Shown: positions 26,946 to 41,921 of the stretch, piece by piece
How positions within the stretch are numbered: position 1 is the first letter of the stretch
Layout of the letters: every line of letters begins with the position of its first letter
Origin: Spirochaetae bacterium HGW-Spirochaetae-4
Lineage (GTDB): Bacteria > Spirochaetota > Spirochaetia > Sphaerochaetales > Sphaerochaetaceae
Assembly: GCA_002839335.1 (NCBI GenBank)
Contig: PGXU01000012.1
Coordinates: 1 to 64,000 of the forward strand
Direction of reading: 5' to 3'
Length of the DNA: 64,000 nucleotides
The notes under the pieces: model-generated
What the model was told of the DNA's origin: nothing
The model's database searches: none
The model's input: only the letters and a program-made list of their open reading frames with translations
Position numbers and translations under genes: made by a program

Positions 26946-26962
26946 TGTGAAAAATTTTCACA
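26946..26962. promoter_or_regulatory. Palindromic element 1 (candidate enhancer)
   Basis: TGTGAAAA-A-TTTTCACA; fits TGTGAA-N5-TTCACA. Confidence 0.55.
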
Positions 26963-27011
26963 TCCTGAAATCGATGGAAGAGCTTGCGCAGCATATATGG
27001 CAACGGATTGG

Positions 27012-27028
27012 TGTGAAAGTTATTCACA
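27012..27028. promoter_or_regulatory. Palindromic element 2 (candidate enhancer)
   Basis: TGTGAA-AGTTA-TTCACA; same geometry as element 1, 66 bp downstream. Confidence 0.55.
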
Positions 27029-27109
27029 GGAACTCAAAAAGGACTTTGACCACCAGTATTGTGTTGATTGTGTGTATTTTGCCAGACAAAGTCGACGATA
27101 CGGCTCGAT

Positions 27110-27124
27110 TGGCATACTATCTGC
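27110..27124 (+). promoter_or_regulatory. Predicted sigma-54 (-24/-12) promoter of efflux/two-component operon
   Basis: TGGCATACTATCTGC: GG and GC separated by 10 nt, as in TGGCAC-N5-TTGC. Confidence 0.55.
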
Positions 27125-27168
27125 ATGAATGTGGGAAATAACTGTTAACATATGGTAAAGGAAAACAA

Positions 27169-28608
27169 ATGGGAAACAAACGACTCATTGGTCTAATCGG
27201 TATCTGCCTGCTTGCGCTCGCATCGTTGGGTGCCGCGGATTTGGATACGATCGTAGACCAGTCCAAGCAAAACAGCAGCACAATCCAATTGATAGAGTTG
27301 AGTAAACAGAACAGCGACTTGTCGGTTGCCATGGGCGAGGTGCAGGAAACCACCGGTATCGAGGTTTCGGGGGATCTCTCCTATAAGGATGGAGCATTGG
27401 TATCAAGTGGGAAAGACAGCCTTTTGTTGTCGCCTTCTGTTGTCATTACCTTGCCCAATGATGGGAAAACCAAGATTACCGTCGGAGCCGACTCGATCAG
27501 CCGGTCGTTGACCAACGACAATTTCTGGAGTGCCGATCCGAGTGTGGGCATCTCGCACACGATAACATTCGGTGATTCGGGGGATATCCTCAGCGACTTG
27601 CAACTTGCAAAGCAAAAGCTTGAGATCGATCAGACCTACCGCCAGCGCATCTATGATTTCGAATCCTCCATCTACACCAAGATATCCGAGATCGTCACCT
27701 ACGAAATGAATCTGCTCAATGCCGAGAAGGATATCCTTATCCAAAAGACAAAGATCGACAATGCCTTGAAGTTGAAGACCACAGCTGTCGGTTCCTCCAC
27801 ATTCCGGAACATGGAACTGGAGTTGGCCAAACTGGAAAACTCCAAGTCATCGATCCAACAGAAACTGGTCATGGCAAAAACACAATACATGCAACTGACC
27901 GGCATGGAGTGGGACGGTGTCGGCTCGATACGGCAAGCCGACCTCTCCTTCGCGTTCATGCCGACCGGTGACACTACGGTAATCACCGCCGCCCTCGAAC
28001 TAGAGATCGCAAAAGAGGAATTGGCCTTGCGACAGAGGAATACCGTCATATCGGGAAATTCACGCACGGTTCCCAGCCTTACGGTTGGCGGCAGTACCGG
28101 ACTTTCCTATACCGAAGCAATCGCCACCACGTTGTTCTATGAATTGGGTGCCCAAGCGCTTTACAGTGCGAACAACTTTACCACAGGAGCCTCTGTGAAC
28201 CTGGATATTTCGGATAGCGGAGCCATTACCCCCTCGCTCACTATCAGCGGCAGTTGGAGGAACAATCCCACCATCGCCAACGATGTATTGGAAATCCAGA
28301 GCTTGCAGAACAACATCACCATAGCTGGAATCGACTATCAGGAAGCCATGTTGGACTACCAGATAAACGCGAACCAGCTTGAAGCCGACATCCTCAGCCA
28401 TCAGTTGGAGACCGAACAGTTCGAACAGACAGCTGTTTATCGCCAGCAGGTCTTGGACGAGGCTCTCCAAGCGTTTGCGAAGGGTCTGATAACCCAAACC
28501 GAAGTTGACCAAGCCCGTCTGGATGCAGAGTTGACCACCTATGAACGCACCATCTACGCACTTGAGGCGTTGGTTCTTGAAAACCGGGCGAAAGCCCTGC
28601 AATTGTAA
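27169..28608 (+). CDS. TolC-like outer-membrane efflux protein
   Basis: Signal peptide; paired coiled-coil OEP repeats; C-terminal VLDEALQAFAKGLITQTEVDQARLDAELTTYERTIYALEALVLENRAKAL. Confidence 0.8.
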   Translation: MGNKRLIGLIGICLLALASLGAADLDTIVDQSKQNSSTIQLIELSKQNSDLSVAMGEVQETTGIEVSGDLSYKDGALVSSGKDSLLLSPSVVITLPNDGKTKITVGADSISRSLTNDNFWSADPSVGISHTITFGDSGDILSDLQLAKQKLEIDQTYRQRIYDFESSIYTKISEIVTYEMNLLNAEKDILIQKTKIDNALKLKTTAVGSSTFRNMELELAKLENSKSSIQQKLVMAKTQYMQLTGMEWDGVGSIRQADLSFAFMPTGDTTVITAALELEIAKEELALRQRNTVISGNSRTVPSLTVGGSTGLSYTEAIATTLFYELGAQALYSANNFTTGASVNLDISDSGAITPSLTISGSWRNNPTIANDVLEIQSLQNNITIAGIDYQEAMLDYQINANQLEADILSHQLETEQFEQTAVYRQQVLDEALQAFAKGLITQTEVDQARLDAELTTYERTIYALEALVLENRAKALQL

Positions 28609-28629: not shown

Positions 28630-29796
28630 ATGAGTCCCAATACGAATTCCACTGCGAATCCCAACAACAATACCGAAGATAGGGTCAGGGCCAACTTGAA
28701 GAAGAAGCTGCGAAAAAAGCGGATCAAACGTCTCATCACGTGGGCTGTGGTTGTCGTAATTCTCGGCATTGCGGTATTCAGCTACCAATTCTACAAAACC
28801 AACGGACGTATGCCATTCACCAGTGCCGACAAGGCGGCTGCCGAACAAGCTGCCACCGCCACACAAGAAACCACGGTACGGGAGATCGAATTCTCCCAGA
28901 CTATCGACATAAGTGGAAACGTCGAGGCGTTCGAGACTCAGAAGGTGGTATTCCGGTCGACCGGTGCCGTAACCGGTGTCTTTGTGGAGGAAGGTGTGCA
29001 GGTGAAGAAGGGCGACCTGCTGGCGACTATCGACGATACCTCCCAATCCTATACCTTGGCGAATATCGAATCGCAGATCGAGGAGGCGAAACTGCAAGGT
29101 TCAGTGCGTCAGCTTGAATTGCTGGAGATGCAGAAGACCATGGCTGTCAATAATCTCGACTACACGAAAGCCTATGCGAATTTCGATGGCGTGGTGGCCT
29201 CGGTCTCGGTGGATGAAGGCGACTACTTCGAAGCTGGAGATGCGGCCATGGTCATTATAGACCGCAGCAAGCTCAAGGCTACCGTGGAAATCGATGAGAT
29301 CGATATCCAGAGCGTCCAGACGGGAATGACGGCACAATTGACCTTCGATTCCATACCGGGTGCGACGATAGACGCGACTGTCACCTACATTCCCATGCTC
29401 GGTCGAACCACCAGCCAGGGAATCGGCGTCTTGGATGTCGAGATTGTCATAGAGGATCCTCCAACCGCACTGGCTCCCGGCTTCACCTTCGCAGGAACCA
29501 TCAGTGCAGATGAAGTGAAGAAGATGTTGGTGCTTCCGACTTCGGCGATAGTTTCCAATCGGCGTGGTTCGGATACGGTTCGGAAAAAGGGTGCCGACGG
29601 GAATCCCGTGGCGGTAGAGGTGACCACCAACTACTTGGGTGAAGGCATGAGTGAAATCCTTTCGGGAGATTTGAAGGTAGGCGATGTCGTGTTGATGGGA
29701 GAACCCTCCGACAGTATGTTCAATATGGGAATTCCTGGGGCCACAACCAATGAACCGGGAAGTGGACCAGGAGCTGGTCTGCGGAACGCACTGTAG
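28630..29796 (+). CDS. MacA/HlyD-like periplasmic adaptor subunit
   Basis: Single [30 protein letters not shown] biotinyl-lipoyl-like domain; [23 protein letters not shown]. Confidence 0.88.
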
Positions 29797-29807
29797 GGAG
29801 CACGAAT

Positions 29808-30482
29808 ATGGCAAAAGCAGTAATTTCTCTGTACGATGTGCGTCGCTACTTTGTGATGGGCGAGTTTGTCGTCAAGGCCCTCGATGGTGTGACACTCTCA
29901 ATAGAAGAGGGTGAGTTCACCGCCATAACCGGACCCTCGGGCTCCGGCAAATCGACCCTCATGAATTTGATCGGATGTCTTGATACACCGACAGATGGCA
30001 TTATCCAGATCGACGGGGAGGAGACGTTGGGTATGAGCGAAGCCGAGCTTGCTTATATCCGCAACCAAAAAGTCGGGTTTGTATTCCAGCAATTCAACCT
30101 TTTGGGAAAGATCAACGCGTTGGAGAACGTCATGACGCCCTTGCTGTATGCGGGTGTAAGTGTGAAGGAGCGGCGCGAACGGGCGAAGTCGGCCTTGGAG
30201 CGGGTTGGGTTGGGCGATCGCATGAAGCATCGGCCGAACGAACTCTCCGGTGGGCAAAAACAACGAGTCGCGGTAGCCCGTGCATTGGTGAACAACCCGT
30301 CCATCCTGTTGGCCGACGAACCTACCGGTGCGCTCGATACCCATACCGGACGTCAGATCATGGAACTGTTCGAAGAGTTGAATGCCGAAGGTCGGACCGT
30401 AATTCTGGTTACCCATGACCATGATATCGCCATGCGTGCACGTCGGCAGGTACATGTCCGCGACGGCCATTTGGAGGGTTAG
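29808..30482 (+). CDS. MacB/LolD-type ABC transporter ATP-binding protein
   Basis: [58 protein letters not shown]. Confidence 0.95.
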
Positions 30483-31664
30483 ATGATCTGGGAAAACATA
30501 AAACTGGCATTGAAGGATATGATGGCGAGCAAGATGCGCACGCTGCTCTCCCTGCTCGGTATCGTCATCGGTGTCGCCTCGGTCATAGCTATCCTCACCT
30601 TGGGCCAAAGCGCGACCAAGAGCATCACCCAGACAATCGTGGAGGGTGGGTTGGAGATGGTGACGATTTTTCCCGTGCGTTCCGAAAAGGCCGCCAATGA
30701 ATTCACCGAGGATTTCGGAGAACGTCTCGTTGCCAATGTCTCCGATATCAAGACGGTCCTGCCGGTCAATTCCAGTACCGCAACCATCCGTATCGGACAA
30801 AATTCCCTATCGGCCACGGTGACCGGTGTCCTCTCCTCGTATGCCGAGATTCTCGACTATGAAGTATCGGAGGGTGCCTTCTTTTCGCTATCGGACAATA
30901 TGGCCAACCGCCAGGTGGTTGTATTGGGCTCCGATATCGCCGAGGAATTGTTCCCCGATGGCAATGCTATCGGCGAATATGTGAGCATTTTCCGCAACCA
31001 GGCCAAAAGCTACCAGGTGGTCGGGGTCATGCAGGAAAAGGACGCCTCGTTCAACCTCCAGTTCAACGGAAGCGTATTCATTCCCTACAACACCTATGCT
31101 CAACGCTATATCAAGCCCACCATTGTCGGTTCGTATGTGGTCCGGGTAGCCGATGGGGCCGATGCCCTCGCTGTTTCCGATGCGATCACCGAATACCTCG
31201 ATGCGACTGTCGGATCCGATGCCTACCGTGTCTTTTCGCCGGCAAGCCTGGCAGATATGGCCGAACAGATCACCGGTACGTTCAGCTCGTTCCTGGCCGC
31301 GATCGCAGCCATATCGCTGCTGGTCGGTGGAATCGGGATCATGAATATCATGCTGGTATCGGTCGCGGAACGCACCCGTGAAATCGGTGTGCGCAAGGCG
31401 ATGGGAGCTTCTCCGTGGACAATTATGGGACAATTCATAACCGAGGCTATCGTACTTACCATAACTGGTGGTATCATAGGGATAGGTCTTGGAACACTGC
31501 TGAGCTGGCTCGTGGCCGATATTGTCGGCTGGAACCTCTATATTTCCTATACTTCGTTCCTGTTCGCTGCCGGATTCTCAACCCTCGTAGGTGTATTCTT
31601 CGGGTGGTATCCTGCCATGAAGGCCTCCAGACTTGATCCAATCGAGGCGTTGAACTATGAGTAG
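30483..31664 (+). CDS. MacB-type ABC transporter permease
   Basis: KMRTLLSLLGIVIGVASVIAILTLGQ; GGIGIMNIMLVSVAERTREIGVRKAMGAS; PAMKASRLDPIEALNYE. Confidence 0.93.
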   Translation: MIWENIKLALKDMMASKMRTLLSLLGIVIGVASVIAILTLGQSATKSITQTIVEGGLEMVTIFPVRSEKAANEFTEDFGERLVANVSDIKTVLPVNSSTATIRIGQNSLSATVTGVLSSYAEILDYEVSEGAFFSLSDNMANRQVVVLGSDIAEELFPDGNAIGEYVSIFRNQAKSYQVVGVMQEKDASFNLQFNGSVFIPYNTYAQRYIKPTIVGSYVVRVADGADALAVSDAITEYLDATVGSDAYRVFSPASLADMAEQITGTFSSFLAAIAAISLLVGGIGIMNIMLVSVAERTREIGVRKAMGASPWTIMGQFITEAIVLTITGGIIGIGLGTLLSWLVADIVGWNLYISYTSFLFAAGFSTLVGVFFGWYPAMKASRLDPIEALNYE

Positions 31665-32961
31665 TGCACGACGGTGGTCCTTCATTGAGGGCAAAGAACA
31701 GATTTTCGTTGTCGGGGGACTTCTTTTTCTCTTTGTGTTGCTGGTCACCCTGGTGCTGTTCCTCTCCCAACTGATAATCGAGAAGGAGAACACCCTCATG
31801 CAATTCGAGGCGGAACGTGGATTCGCCTCCTCGACCCTGCTGTTGTTGCAGGAGGAGCACTCGCGGGCCTTGGAGGCCATGCAGGAAGGAAATGTGCGGG
31901 GAATCGGTGTCTACTCCAATGCCGGTCGACTCATGCTTGGTCTCGGTTCGGTGCCCAATACCTTGCCACTCGAACGTTTCAACGATATCTGGCGCAATAG
32001 GAACGCGAACCAATGGAACCAGGGAGTGGCGACCTACAACAAGGATACCGGCATGATCGAATATATCCGTTTCAGCCGGCTCACCATCCAAGTGGAGACA
32101 GGGGATATCATGTTGGAGGAAGATGGTTTCCTCCCATCGCCGTTGACCTTCCCCGATGTCCTCTACATCCTTTTCGATGGTCAGGATTATTTCCGCAAGG
32201 TCATGCTGGTACGGTTCTTCAGTGCGGCGGCGGTGCTTGGCTTGTTGGCTTTCCACCTGCTCGTCTACAGTATCTATCGCAACAACCGCAAGTACCGCGA
32301 GACCTTGGCGAAACAAGAGAGTCTGGTAAATCTCGGCGAGGCTGCCCGGACACTGGCACATGAGATAAAGAATCCGTTGAGCGCGATAACCTTGCAGATG
32401 GCCTTGTTGAAGAAGACCTTGCCGGCATCATCCAAGGAAGACCTCATGGTCATCGACCAGGAAGTGCAGAGGTTGACCCAGCTGACCAACAAGGTCTCCG
32501 ATTTCCTGCGCAACCCCGTGGGCATGCCCGAGAAACTCGATATCGTGGCGTTGCTGGAATCGTTGCAACATACCTTCCATGGGAAACTACAGTTCGTTCC
32601 CGGTTCATTGCATCATGCCTATATCCATTTCGACTCCGACCGGGCCCGTTCGGTGTTCGAGAACCTGATCAAGAATGCGCTCGAAAGTTGCATCGATTGC
32701 GATCCCGAAGTAGAAGTGGAAGTCAGCCGGGACAAGCGGCATTTGATACATATCGCTGTTCGCGATCGGGGGGAAGGAATCCCCGAGCAAAACCTGGAAA
32801 AGATATTCGACCCGTTCTTCACCACAAAGATCCATGGTTCCGGAATCGGTCTGGCAATCTGCCGCCAATTCATCCGTGCCCGTGGTGGGAACCTGAAGCT
32901 CTACGCACGGGAAGGCGGTGGCACGGTTGCCGAAGTCATCCTTCCGTCGGTGCATATATAG
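31657..32961 (+). CDS. Membrane sensor histidine kinase
   Basis: Two TM helices; H-box LAHEIKNPLSAITLQMALL; N-box FENLIKNAL; GSGIGLAICRQFIRARGGNL. Confidence 0.92.
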   Translation: MSSARRWSFIEGKEQIFVVGGLLFLFVLLVTLVLFLSQLIIEKENTLMQFEAERGFASSTLLLLQEEHSRALEAMQEGNVRGIGVYSNAGRLMLGLGSVPNTLPLERFNDIWRNRNANQWNQGVATYNKDTGMIEYIRFSRLTIQVETGDIMLEEDGFLPSPLTFPDVLYILFDGQDYFRKVMLVRFFSAAAVLGLLAFHLLVYSIYRNNRKYRETLAKQESLVNLGEAARTLAHEIKNPLSAITLQMALLKKTLPASSKEDLMVIDQEVQRLTQLTNKVSDFLRNPVGMPEKLDIVALLESLQHTFHGKLQFVPGSLHHAYIHFDSDRARSVFENLIKNALESCIDCDPEVEVEVSRDKRHLIHIAVRDRGEGIPEQNLEKIFDPFFTTKIHGSGIGLAICRQFIRARGGNLKLYAREGGGTVAEVILPSVHI

Positions 32962-32970
32962 GGGAAAGCC

Positions 32971-34341
32971 ATGAGAATCCTGATTGTCGACGATGAATAC
33001 AATATCCGTGAATTGATGCGCAAATACCTGGGTCTTGAAGGACTTGAGAGCGATGGTGCCGAGAACGGACTTTCCGCACAGCGGTTGTTGCGCGAGCACC
33101 ACTACGACGCTTGTCTGGTCGATCTGAAAATGCCCGGTATGGACGGCATCAGCCTGATCCGATGGATCCGCCAAGAGGGGTTCCGCATGCCCGTCATCAT
33201 GATCAGTGCGCATGGTGAGATCCACGATGCGGTCACCGCTTTGAAAGAAGGTGCACAGGACTATATCGTCAAGCCATTCGACCCCGAGGAGCTGACCATA
33301 CGGTTGCGCAAGCTTATGGAAGTCCAACAGTTGCGGACTCTTGTGGAGACGAAGACACGTTCGACCGAGGGAATAGACGAGGGCCTCATCGGAGACTCTC
33401 CTCCCATGTGCAAGATTCGGGAAATCATCTCCCGTATTGCCGACTCCCCGGCAACAGTGCTGGTGACCGGAGAGAGTGGGACCGGCAAAGAGGTTGTTGC
33501 CCGGCAGATCCATGGAGTCTCCGCGCTTGCCGAGGGACCGTTTGTCGCCATCAATATCGGGGGTGTACCGGAAAACCTGTTGGAAAGCGAGTTGTTTGGC
33601 TATGAAAAGGGTGCGTTCACCGGTGCGGTAGGTCGCAAGATAGGTATGTTCGAGCTGGCGAGCGGGGGTACGTTGTTCCTCGATGAGATCGGGGATATGC
33701 CGATGACACTGCAGGTCAAGATGCTGCGTGTCCTGCAGGAGCGCAAGATCACCCGATTGGGTGGGACCTCTCCCATTCCGATCAATGCCCGTATCATTGC
33801 CGCGACGAACAAGAAGCTCGAGGAGATGGTCCATGAGGGTTCTTTCCGTGAGGACCTCTTCTATCGGCTCAATGTGGTACGTATCGAGCTACCTCCCTTG
33901 CGGGACCGCAAGGAGGACATTCCGTTGCTCACCGGAGTCATACTCAACAAACTCAACCGTCAGATGGGACACCGTGTTGAAGGGCTGTCTCCCGAAGCGA
34001 TCGACGCACTGAAAGCCCATCCGTTCTACGGTAATGTCCGCGAACTGGAGAATATCCTTGAACGTGCGGTCATTTTCGCCGATGGCCCGATCATCAAGCC
34101 CGATGTCCTCGAGTTGCGAAGCAGTATTTCCCGGCCCGGCACCGATTCGGGACAATCCAACAGTACCTTGATAGTCCAGGATGACAATGGGGAGGCCCGC
34201 AGTCTCAAGGAACTTGAAGTGGAAGCTATCATCCGGGCTTTGCATCGGTGGGAAGGGAATCGGACTCGTGCCGCAGAGGAGTTGGGTATTTCCCGCAGGA
34301 CCTTGATAAACAAGATCGCGGAATATCGGCTGGATCTTTAA
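32971..34341 (+). CDS. NtrC-family sigma-54-dependent response regulator
   Basis: REC (ILIVDDEYNIRELMRKY...CLVDLKMPGMDG); AAA+ GESGTGKEVVARQIH, ESELFGYEKGAFTGA; C-terminal Fis-type HTH ELGISRRTLINKIAEYRLDL. Confidence 0.95.
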   Translation: MRILIVDDEYNIRELMRKYLGLEGLESDGAENGLSAQRLLREHHYDACLVDLKMPGMDGISLIRWIRQEGFRMPVIMISAHGEIHDAVTALKEGAQDYIVKPFDPEELTIRLRKLMEVQQLRTLVETKTRSTEGIDEGLIGDSPPMCKIREIISRIADSPATVLVTGESGTGKEVVARQIHGVSALAEGPFVAINIGGVPENLLESELFGYEKGAFTGAVGRKIGMFELASGGTLFLDEIGDMPMTLQVKMLRVLQERKITRLGGTSPIPINARIIAATNKKLEEMVHEGSFREDLFYRLNVVRIELPPLRDRKEDIPLLTGVILNKLNRQMGHRVEGLSPEAIDALKAHPFYGNVRELENILERAVIFADGPIIKPDVLELRSSISRPGTDSGQSNSTLIVQDDNGEARSLKELEVEAIIRALHRWEGNRTRAAEELGISRRTLINKIAEYRLDL

Positions 34342-34343
34342 AC
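34287..34343 (+). repeat. 57-bp exact direct repeat, copy 1 (inside 3' end of NtrC-type gene)
   Basis: tatttcccgcaggaccttgataaacaagatcgcggaatatcggctggatctttaaac, identical to 41784-41840. Confidence 0.95.
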
Positions 34344-34346
34344 CAT

Positions 34347-34364
34347 AATACCACAAAGGGTATA
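34347..34364. promoter_or_regulatory. HipB-operator-like palindrome after repeat copy 1
   Basis: AATACC-ACAAAG-GGTATA; one mismatch to TATACC-N6-GGTATA found upstream of hipB. Confidence 0.45.
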
Positions 34365-41689: not shown

Positions 41690-41838
41690 AATTCCTGGAC
41701 CCGGGAATTTTCTATACCCCCATCAATCCTGAGGATCTCAAGGCGGACCTGCCACGAAGTATCGGTTCTCCCGACACTTTGGCTATTTCCCGCAGGACCT
41801 TGATAAACAAGATCGCGGAATATCGGCTGGATCTTTAA
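41690..41838 (+). pseudogene. NtrC-type regulator 3'-end remnant (chimeric fragment)
   Basis: Frame reads EFLDPGIFYTPINPEDLKADLPRSIGSPDTLAISRRTLINKIAEYRLDL*; the end is identical to the regulator at 32971-34341. Confidence 0.7.
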
Positions 41839-41840
41839 AC
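41784..41840 (+). repeat. 57-bp exact direct repeat, copy 2
   Basis: Identical to 34287-34343. Confidence 0.95.
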
Positions 41841-41858
41841 TATACCGTATCGGGTATA
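41841..41858. promoter_or_regulatory. HipB operator-like palindrome O1
   Basis: TATACC-GTATCG-GGTATA. Confidence 0.7.
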
Positions 41859-41898: not shown

Positions 41899-41921
41899 AA
41901 AATTGTAAAGATGCTTTACAT

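Follow-up and report, generated by a model that had tools for sequence, protein, structure and literature searches.

Palindromes and a sigma-54-type promoter before an efflux pump/two-component operon recur at a putative small RNA gene across the Sphaerochaetaceae

The window analysed here, a 64-kb stretch of the genome of the spirochaete HGW-Spirochaetae-4 (family Sphaerochaetaceae), harbors on its forward (+) strand a row of six genes encoding a TolC-like outer membrane efflux protein (27169-28608; Pfam OEP, 2.3e-9), a membrane fusion (MacA/HlyD-like) protein (28630-29796; HlyD_D23, 4.2e-19), an ABC ATPase (29808-30482; ABC_tran, 3.7e-35), a MacB/FtsX-type permease (30483-31664; MacB_PCD, 9.6e-40, and FtsX, 4.3e-25), a histidine kinase (HK, 31657-32961; HisKA and HATPase_c) and an NtrC-type response regulator (RR, 32971-34341; receiver, Sigma54_activat at 3.3e-70, HTH_8), the latter being the proposed binder of the palindromes described below. 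Since the gaps between the genes measure 0-21 bp or are replaced by a short overlap, the six genes probably constitute one operon. By Pfam, the fusion protein, the MacB-type permease and the TolC-like protein of a MacAB-TolC pump are all present, and a single-chain MacB with fused ATPase is not, as ATPase and permease are two ORFs and the NCBIfam MacB model scores 248 of a cut-off of 966. The histidine kinase apparently possesses two membrane spans that flank an extracytoplasmic part. In agreement with the earlier sequence-only reading, the last gene encodes an enhancer-binding protein of the NtrC family, in which a receiver, an AAA+ domain with GAFTGA and a Fis-type HTH were found; its recognition helix (ISRRTLINKI in this genome) and GAFTGA are nearly invariant among the orthologues compared, and its scores fall below the NCBIfam equivalog cut-offs of NtrC (423.6/558.6), AtoC (477.1/714) and ZraR (358/760).

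The 3' end of the regulator gene is duplicated 7.5 kb downstream as a 66-bp direct repeat (97%), of which the unit at 34282-34347 encodes the recognition helix and stop codon, and the copy at 41779-41844 lies in noncoding DNA and is missing from the corresponding place in G001. A perfect palindrome TGTAAA-N5-TTTACA (41904-41920), embedded in a region of repeated ATACCGTATCGGGTATAA-like motifs directly before a small HTH gene (41950), looks like the operator of that gene.

Upstream of the pump operon, the palindrome TGTGAA-N5-TTCACA is present as two exact 17-bp copies, a distal one, TGTGAAAAATTTTCACA (26946-26962, +), and a proximal one, TGTGAAAGTTATTCACA (27012-27028, +), which are 66 bp apart from start to start and are the only exact matches in the window; the whole 3.6-Mb genome contains four, compared with about 0.2 expected from base composition. 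They are followed by a -24/-12 element, TGGCATACTATCTGC (27110-27124, +), with exact GG-N10-GC spacing. The transcription start is predicted at 27136 (+), 12 nt 3' of the C of the -12 box, which places the palindrome centres at -182 and -116, close to the distances of about 180 and 115 bp given before. The conserved sites thus lie within the upstream range of about 80-200 bp that is characteristic of enhancer-type sigma-54 promoters, and rpoN, on whose presence the proposal depended, was found in the genome on contig C26 (8.7e-53). A T-rich element, GATTGTGTGTATTTTG (27066-27081, +), revealed by aligning the promoters of five genera, lies between the enhancers and the promoter, about 30 bp before the -24 box, and may serve a DNA-bending protein or represent a third half-site. 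Two other interpretations of the palindromes were discarded: that of terminators, as they lack a T-run and the distal one is nearly loopless, and that of CRP/FNR sites, as both have the odd-centred spacing TGTGA-N7-TCACA instead of TGTGA-N6-TCACA, a difference from CRP to which attention had already been drawn.

Taken by itself, the -24/-12 match is not significant, with 12 equal-or-better sites in the window where about five are expected, and the reality of the element is therefore argued from its conservation at the homologous place in relatives and not from its score. TTGGCA(C/T)-N6-TGC occurs there in seven species of six genera. The other two species of the genus (G001 and G002) retain the full arrangement of two palindromes, 66-bp spacing and promoter, although the sequence between the palindromes has diverged in G002. 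The promoter is accompanied by a single exact palindrome in G003, by two degenerate palindromes 65 bp apart in G007 (TGTGTA-N5-TGCACA and TGCGCA-N5-TGCACA) and by one degenerate palindrome in G021 (CGTGCA-N5-TGCGCA), while in G017, where the contig stops just upstream, TGGCACGAGAACTGC is kept. The pair at exactly 66 bp was found in 3 of 139 family genomes, all from the genus of the window, and in none outside it. The pump-HK-RR operon of genus g3 (G004, G024) has neither the palindrome nor the -24/-12 element, and three RNA copies with palindrome/sigma-54-type promoters lie away from it; its promoter seems to have left the regulon or never to have joined it. In G039, which belongs to another family, a lone HK-RR pair is preceded by TGTGCAAAATCATCACA and TGGCATGAAACCTGC, i.e., palindrome plus -24/-12 element, and in G027 a palindrome, TGTGAAAATTTTTCACA, lies 53 bp before the histidine kinase gene, adjoining a -10-like TATAAT. 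Because of these last two arrangements autoregulation is likely, and the reading of the palindromes as enhancers of a sigma-54 promoter is well supported by the comparison.

The proposal of a self-contained circuit did not survive the family-wide comparison, which showed a separate putative small RNA (sRNA) gene, almost family-wide and present in the window's own genome, to be preceded by the same enhancer/promoter module. The pattern palindrome-N78-108-TGGCA-N7-TGC was encountered in 20 of 139 family genomes from 8 genera, and the reversed pattern in none. Outside genera g1 and g2, the pump operon is almost never what follows the module; a short segment of the putative RNA stands there instead, composed of a conserved CAGAGCAACAGTTTTTTTCATACCTCCTTTTAGTGTGA, a GC-rich hairpin and a T-run. 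A sequence-only model of the promoter and the RNA 5' part, run on the 139 family genomes, matched 130 of them at E<=0.01 and about 119 at E<=2e-6; weak matches (E of about 0.001-0.01) were left out of the RNA gene counts. In the window's genome (G000), the unannotated sigma-54-type sRNA gene is situated between a rhomboid-type gene and rlmE (C63:30368-30490; L203 1569-1690), with a model match of 4.5e-13 at C63:30368-30434, and two upstream sites, TGTGCATATGTTGCGCG and TGTAACATTTTTTCACA, start 154 and 125 bp upstream. This two-site layout, 28-29 bp apart, is shared by G001, G002, G005, G007, G022 and G032. Searched over 84,980 species, an exact pattern hit 78 contigs, all spirochaete by title, and Sphaerochaeta halotolerans and Bullifex porci are among the matching species.

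The predicted RNA is about 70-105 nt long, and its C63 copy should begin near 30395. A spacing of 14 nt between the -12 GC and AGAGCAAC is the commonest; with it the predicted +1 falls on the first conserved bases, as fits a sigma-54 start. In the window's genome the RNA folds at -32.2 kcal/mol (z -5.3). In an alignment built by sequence and not fitted to structure, the two RNA helices pair in 95.5% of cells, compared with 78% after shuffling and no more than 45% after sliding. The terminator stem covaries: among 22 copies, 11 of its 12 pairs show two-sided changes. The second hairpin, UCAUAC-CUCCUUUA-GUGUGA beside a U-run, displays CUCCUUU in its loop; it varies on one side only, without two-sided changes, so that covariation neither proves nor excludes it. 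The loop sequence CCUCCUUU, that of the 16S 3' end, the anti-Shine-Dalgarno (anti-SD), is complementary to Shine-Dalgarno (SD) sequences. In many genera the terminator loop is long (e.g., L203 about 1645-1665) and carries a conserved CUCUCCCCACCCC, a possible second pairing site, which is missing from short-loop genera. The CUCCUUU loop and, in many genera, the C-rich terminator loop as well would probably pair with SD regions of mRNAs and block translation; simultaneous pairing with SD and AUG was dismissed, since it would require an SD-AUG spacing of 1 nt. An Rfam search of the RNA loci returned no match, and the RNA is thus not assigned to the Qrr family. Its own promoter, the covarying terminator and conservation outside coding sequence are the features of a trans-acting sRNA.

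Alternatively, the RNA might be no free sRNA but a sigma-54-driven leader whose terminator controls the downstream gene, mostly rlmE. The RNA indeed lies near rlmE at 54 of 76 loci (near both the rhomboid-type gene and rlmE at 48) and, in the window's genome, upstream of rlmE in the same direction. However, 22 of the 76 loci are not near rlmE, in several genera at least two copies, all provided with a promoter and a terminator, stand in tandem, G002 has a second copy at a separate place in its genome, and conservation peaks in the RNA 5' part, away from the downstream start; a leader is therefore regarded as distinctly unlikely.

The link between palindrome and RNA promoter was assessed on 86 RNA copies from a scan that had set no palindrome condition. 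Of these, 67 have within the 260 bp upstream a palindrome that departs from TGYGMA-N5-TKCRCA at no more than one position, whereas shuffles gave an expectation of 0.61 and the reversed motif occurred at one copy. When inverted repeats were counted without a seed in 56 non-redundant upstream regions, some of which had come in via the palindrome pattern, TGTGA-N7-TCACA likewise ranked top (13 regions; shuffle maximum 3). Moreover, a matrix derived from the RNA-promoter sites, supportive rather than independent because its sites were chosen by a pattern seeded from the finding, ranks the distal palindrome first and the proximal one second in the 64-kb window (27.3 and 21.3; next 14.1). Such footprint conservation and family-wide association contradict a chance meeting of two AT-rich palindromes with a loose GG-N10-GC match, the probability of which is negligible despite the non-significance of the -24/-12 match alone. 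It is also highly improbable that the palindromes belong to a CRP/FNR-like or another sigma-70 regulator and stand before a -24/-12 promoter by coincidence: their half-site TGTGA is that of CRP, the G027 palindrome neighbors TATAAT, and palindromes occur in pairs before a conserved InlB-repeat gene that lacks a -24/-12 element, but the spacing is odd-centred N7 and not N6, and 67 of the 86 sigma-54-type RNA promoters have the palindrome, always upstream of the -24 box.

That InlB-repeat gene encodes an exported protein and is preceded by two palindromes with a separation of 20 bp (C116:9153-9189; L057 3154-3190), which are conserved as a pair in G001, degenerate in G021 and represented by three near-palindromes in G032. 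It was considered as a second sigma-54 target and rejected for want of the -24/-12 element; on its upstream sequence we read it as a case of the motif at a promoter of a different type. The fourth exact palindrome of the genome (C140:74637-74653; L058 3638-3654) stands before an AbrB-type membrane protein gene and is identical in G001, and no -24/-12 element was seen at this site.

The identity of the protein that binds the palindromes is the part of the reading held with the least certainty. Most likely it is the operon's own NtrC-type regulator, a choice that rests on the position of the palindromes before HK-RR units and on the pairing of regulator and RNA in G039 and G052. Palindromes precede an HK-RR unit in three arrangements; G039 and G052 represent two of the three out-of-family genomes with a 69-73% identical regulator, and they are the only ones among 24 out-of-family genomes with a good RNA match. 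Their three RNA copies have degenerate upstream sites only, which counts against the reading, as does the absence of the module from the g3 operon. The same enhancer/sigma-54 layout might instead be used by another NtrC-type activator of the genome (e.g., the conserved one at C113), or two activators might share the sites, the operon then being a target that is not autoregulated. The window's genome holds 13 matches to sigma-54 activators (12 of them strong), three family genomes (G005, G016, G035) have the RNA where no regulator of at least 50% identity was found, and two activators are known to share the sigma-54 sRNA promoter of Vibrio qrr1 (PMC10162802). Against such a binder speak the several HK-RR arrangements, the absence of palindromes near the start of the C113-type activator gene in 20 genomes and the HTHs of the remaining activators, which differ from that of the operon regulator; it appears rather unlikely. 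Six further family genomes have the regulator without a good RNA match. Co-occurrence of regulator and RNA within the family was accordingly abandoned as support, being not convincing, and is counted as evidence against; the mismatches may result partly from MAG incompleteness, because rpoN itself is missing from G035. The autoregulation first suggested for the operon has gained comparative support, while binding by its own regulator, in a genome with that many activators, is a proposal.

With the operon's own regulator as the favored binder, it is fairly probable that this protein, using the palindromes as enhancers, would activate the operon in some genera and the sigma-54-dependent sRNA family-wide. 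The inferred course runs from phosphorylation and binding through transcription to antisense action on target mRNAs. The membrane kinase would sense an envelope or export signal and phosphorylate the regulator, which would oligomerise on the tandem palindromes, so that the DNA loops to RNA polymerase-sigma-54 at 27110-27124. The GAFTGA-bearing AAA+ ring would then open the promoter and yield more TolC-MacAB-HK-RR, i.e., positive autoregulation. The same regulator would turn on the sigma-54-dependent RNA of about 70-105 nt elsewhere in the chromosome (C63), whose pairing with the SD regions of mRNAs would block translation. Our confidence is evenly divided on the broader picture of a Sphaerochaetaceae-wide export/envelope-stress regulon, in which the two-component system of the MacAB-TolC-like pump would drive, by way of sigma-54, its own operon in some genera and, in the family as a whole, single or tandem anti-SD sRNA genes that shut off the translation of selected mRNAs.

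The sigma-54 targets of free-living spirochaetes have been little described, and a defined enhancer motif, a promoter and a near-universal unannotated RNA in a whole family make the regulon directly testable. If true, another phylum would offer a second setting, after Vibrio Qrr, of an NtrC-type regulator driving several sRNA copies, and an efflux pump would be connected with the control of translation by RNA. A search for Sphaerochaeta with sigma-54 or small RNA returned nothing relevant, and no description of a family-wide pump/sRNA regulon was found in the literature searched, which excludes most subscription journals. AtcSR of Treponema denticola was considered as a known relative and set aside, as AtcS/AtcR is not a sigma-54 regulator of such kind (PMC12070737). 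There are precedents both for sRNAs driven by sigma-54 and for transporter/two-component operons under autoregulation; the combination, the RNA and the phylum appear new within that literature.

Among known systems, Qrr sRNAs occur in multiple copies in some Vibrionaceae species. The LuxO/RpoN-Qrr system of that family (PMC10162802) is alike in its NtrC-type regulator, upstream sites, sigma-54 promoters and short terminated RNAs, while the spirochaete RNA is unrelated in sequence (no Rfam match), carries an anti-SD loop, and has tandem copies at one locus and a link to a pump operon. AtoSC and ZraSR, which score best in NCBIfam for the kinase and the regulator, have the same domain order, but the spirochaete pair stays below the curated cut-offs, has pump genes in its operon and has a proposed RNA target. 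The NtrC binding site is TGCACC-N5-GGTGCA, and the sites described here share its 17-bp palindrome and 6-5-6 geometry, as expected of a Fis-type HTH dimer, with a different half-site, TGTGAA/TGTGCA. As in MacAB-TolC, fusion protein, ATPase, MacB-type permease and TolC-like protein occur together, although the spirochaete ATPase and permease are separate proteins. In BceRS-BceAB, a transporter works jointly with its two-component system. Such modules are mentioned in PMC12070737; the spirochaete system differs in its NtrC-type sigma-54 regulator and proposed additional RNA arm. The 'Cuckoo' type sRNAs of alpha-proteobacteria have CCUCCUCCC loops, and thus likewise a hairpin loop copying the anti-Shine-Dalgarno, often in several copies; the spirochaete RNA belongs to a different phylum, has a different sequence and possesses a sigma-54 promoter with enhancers.
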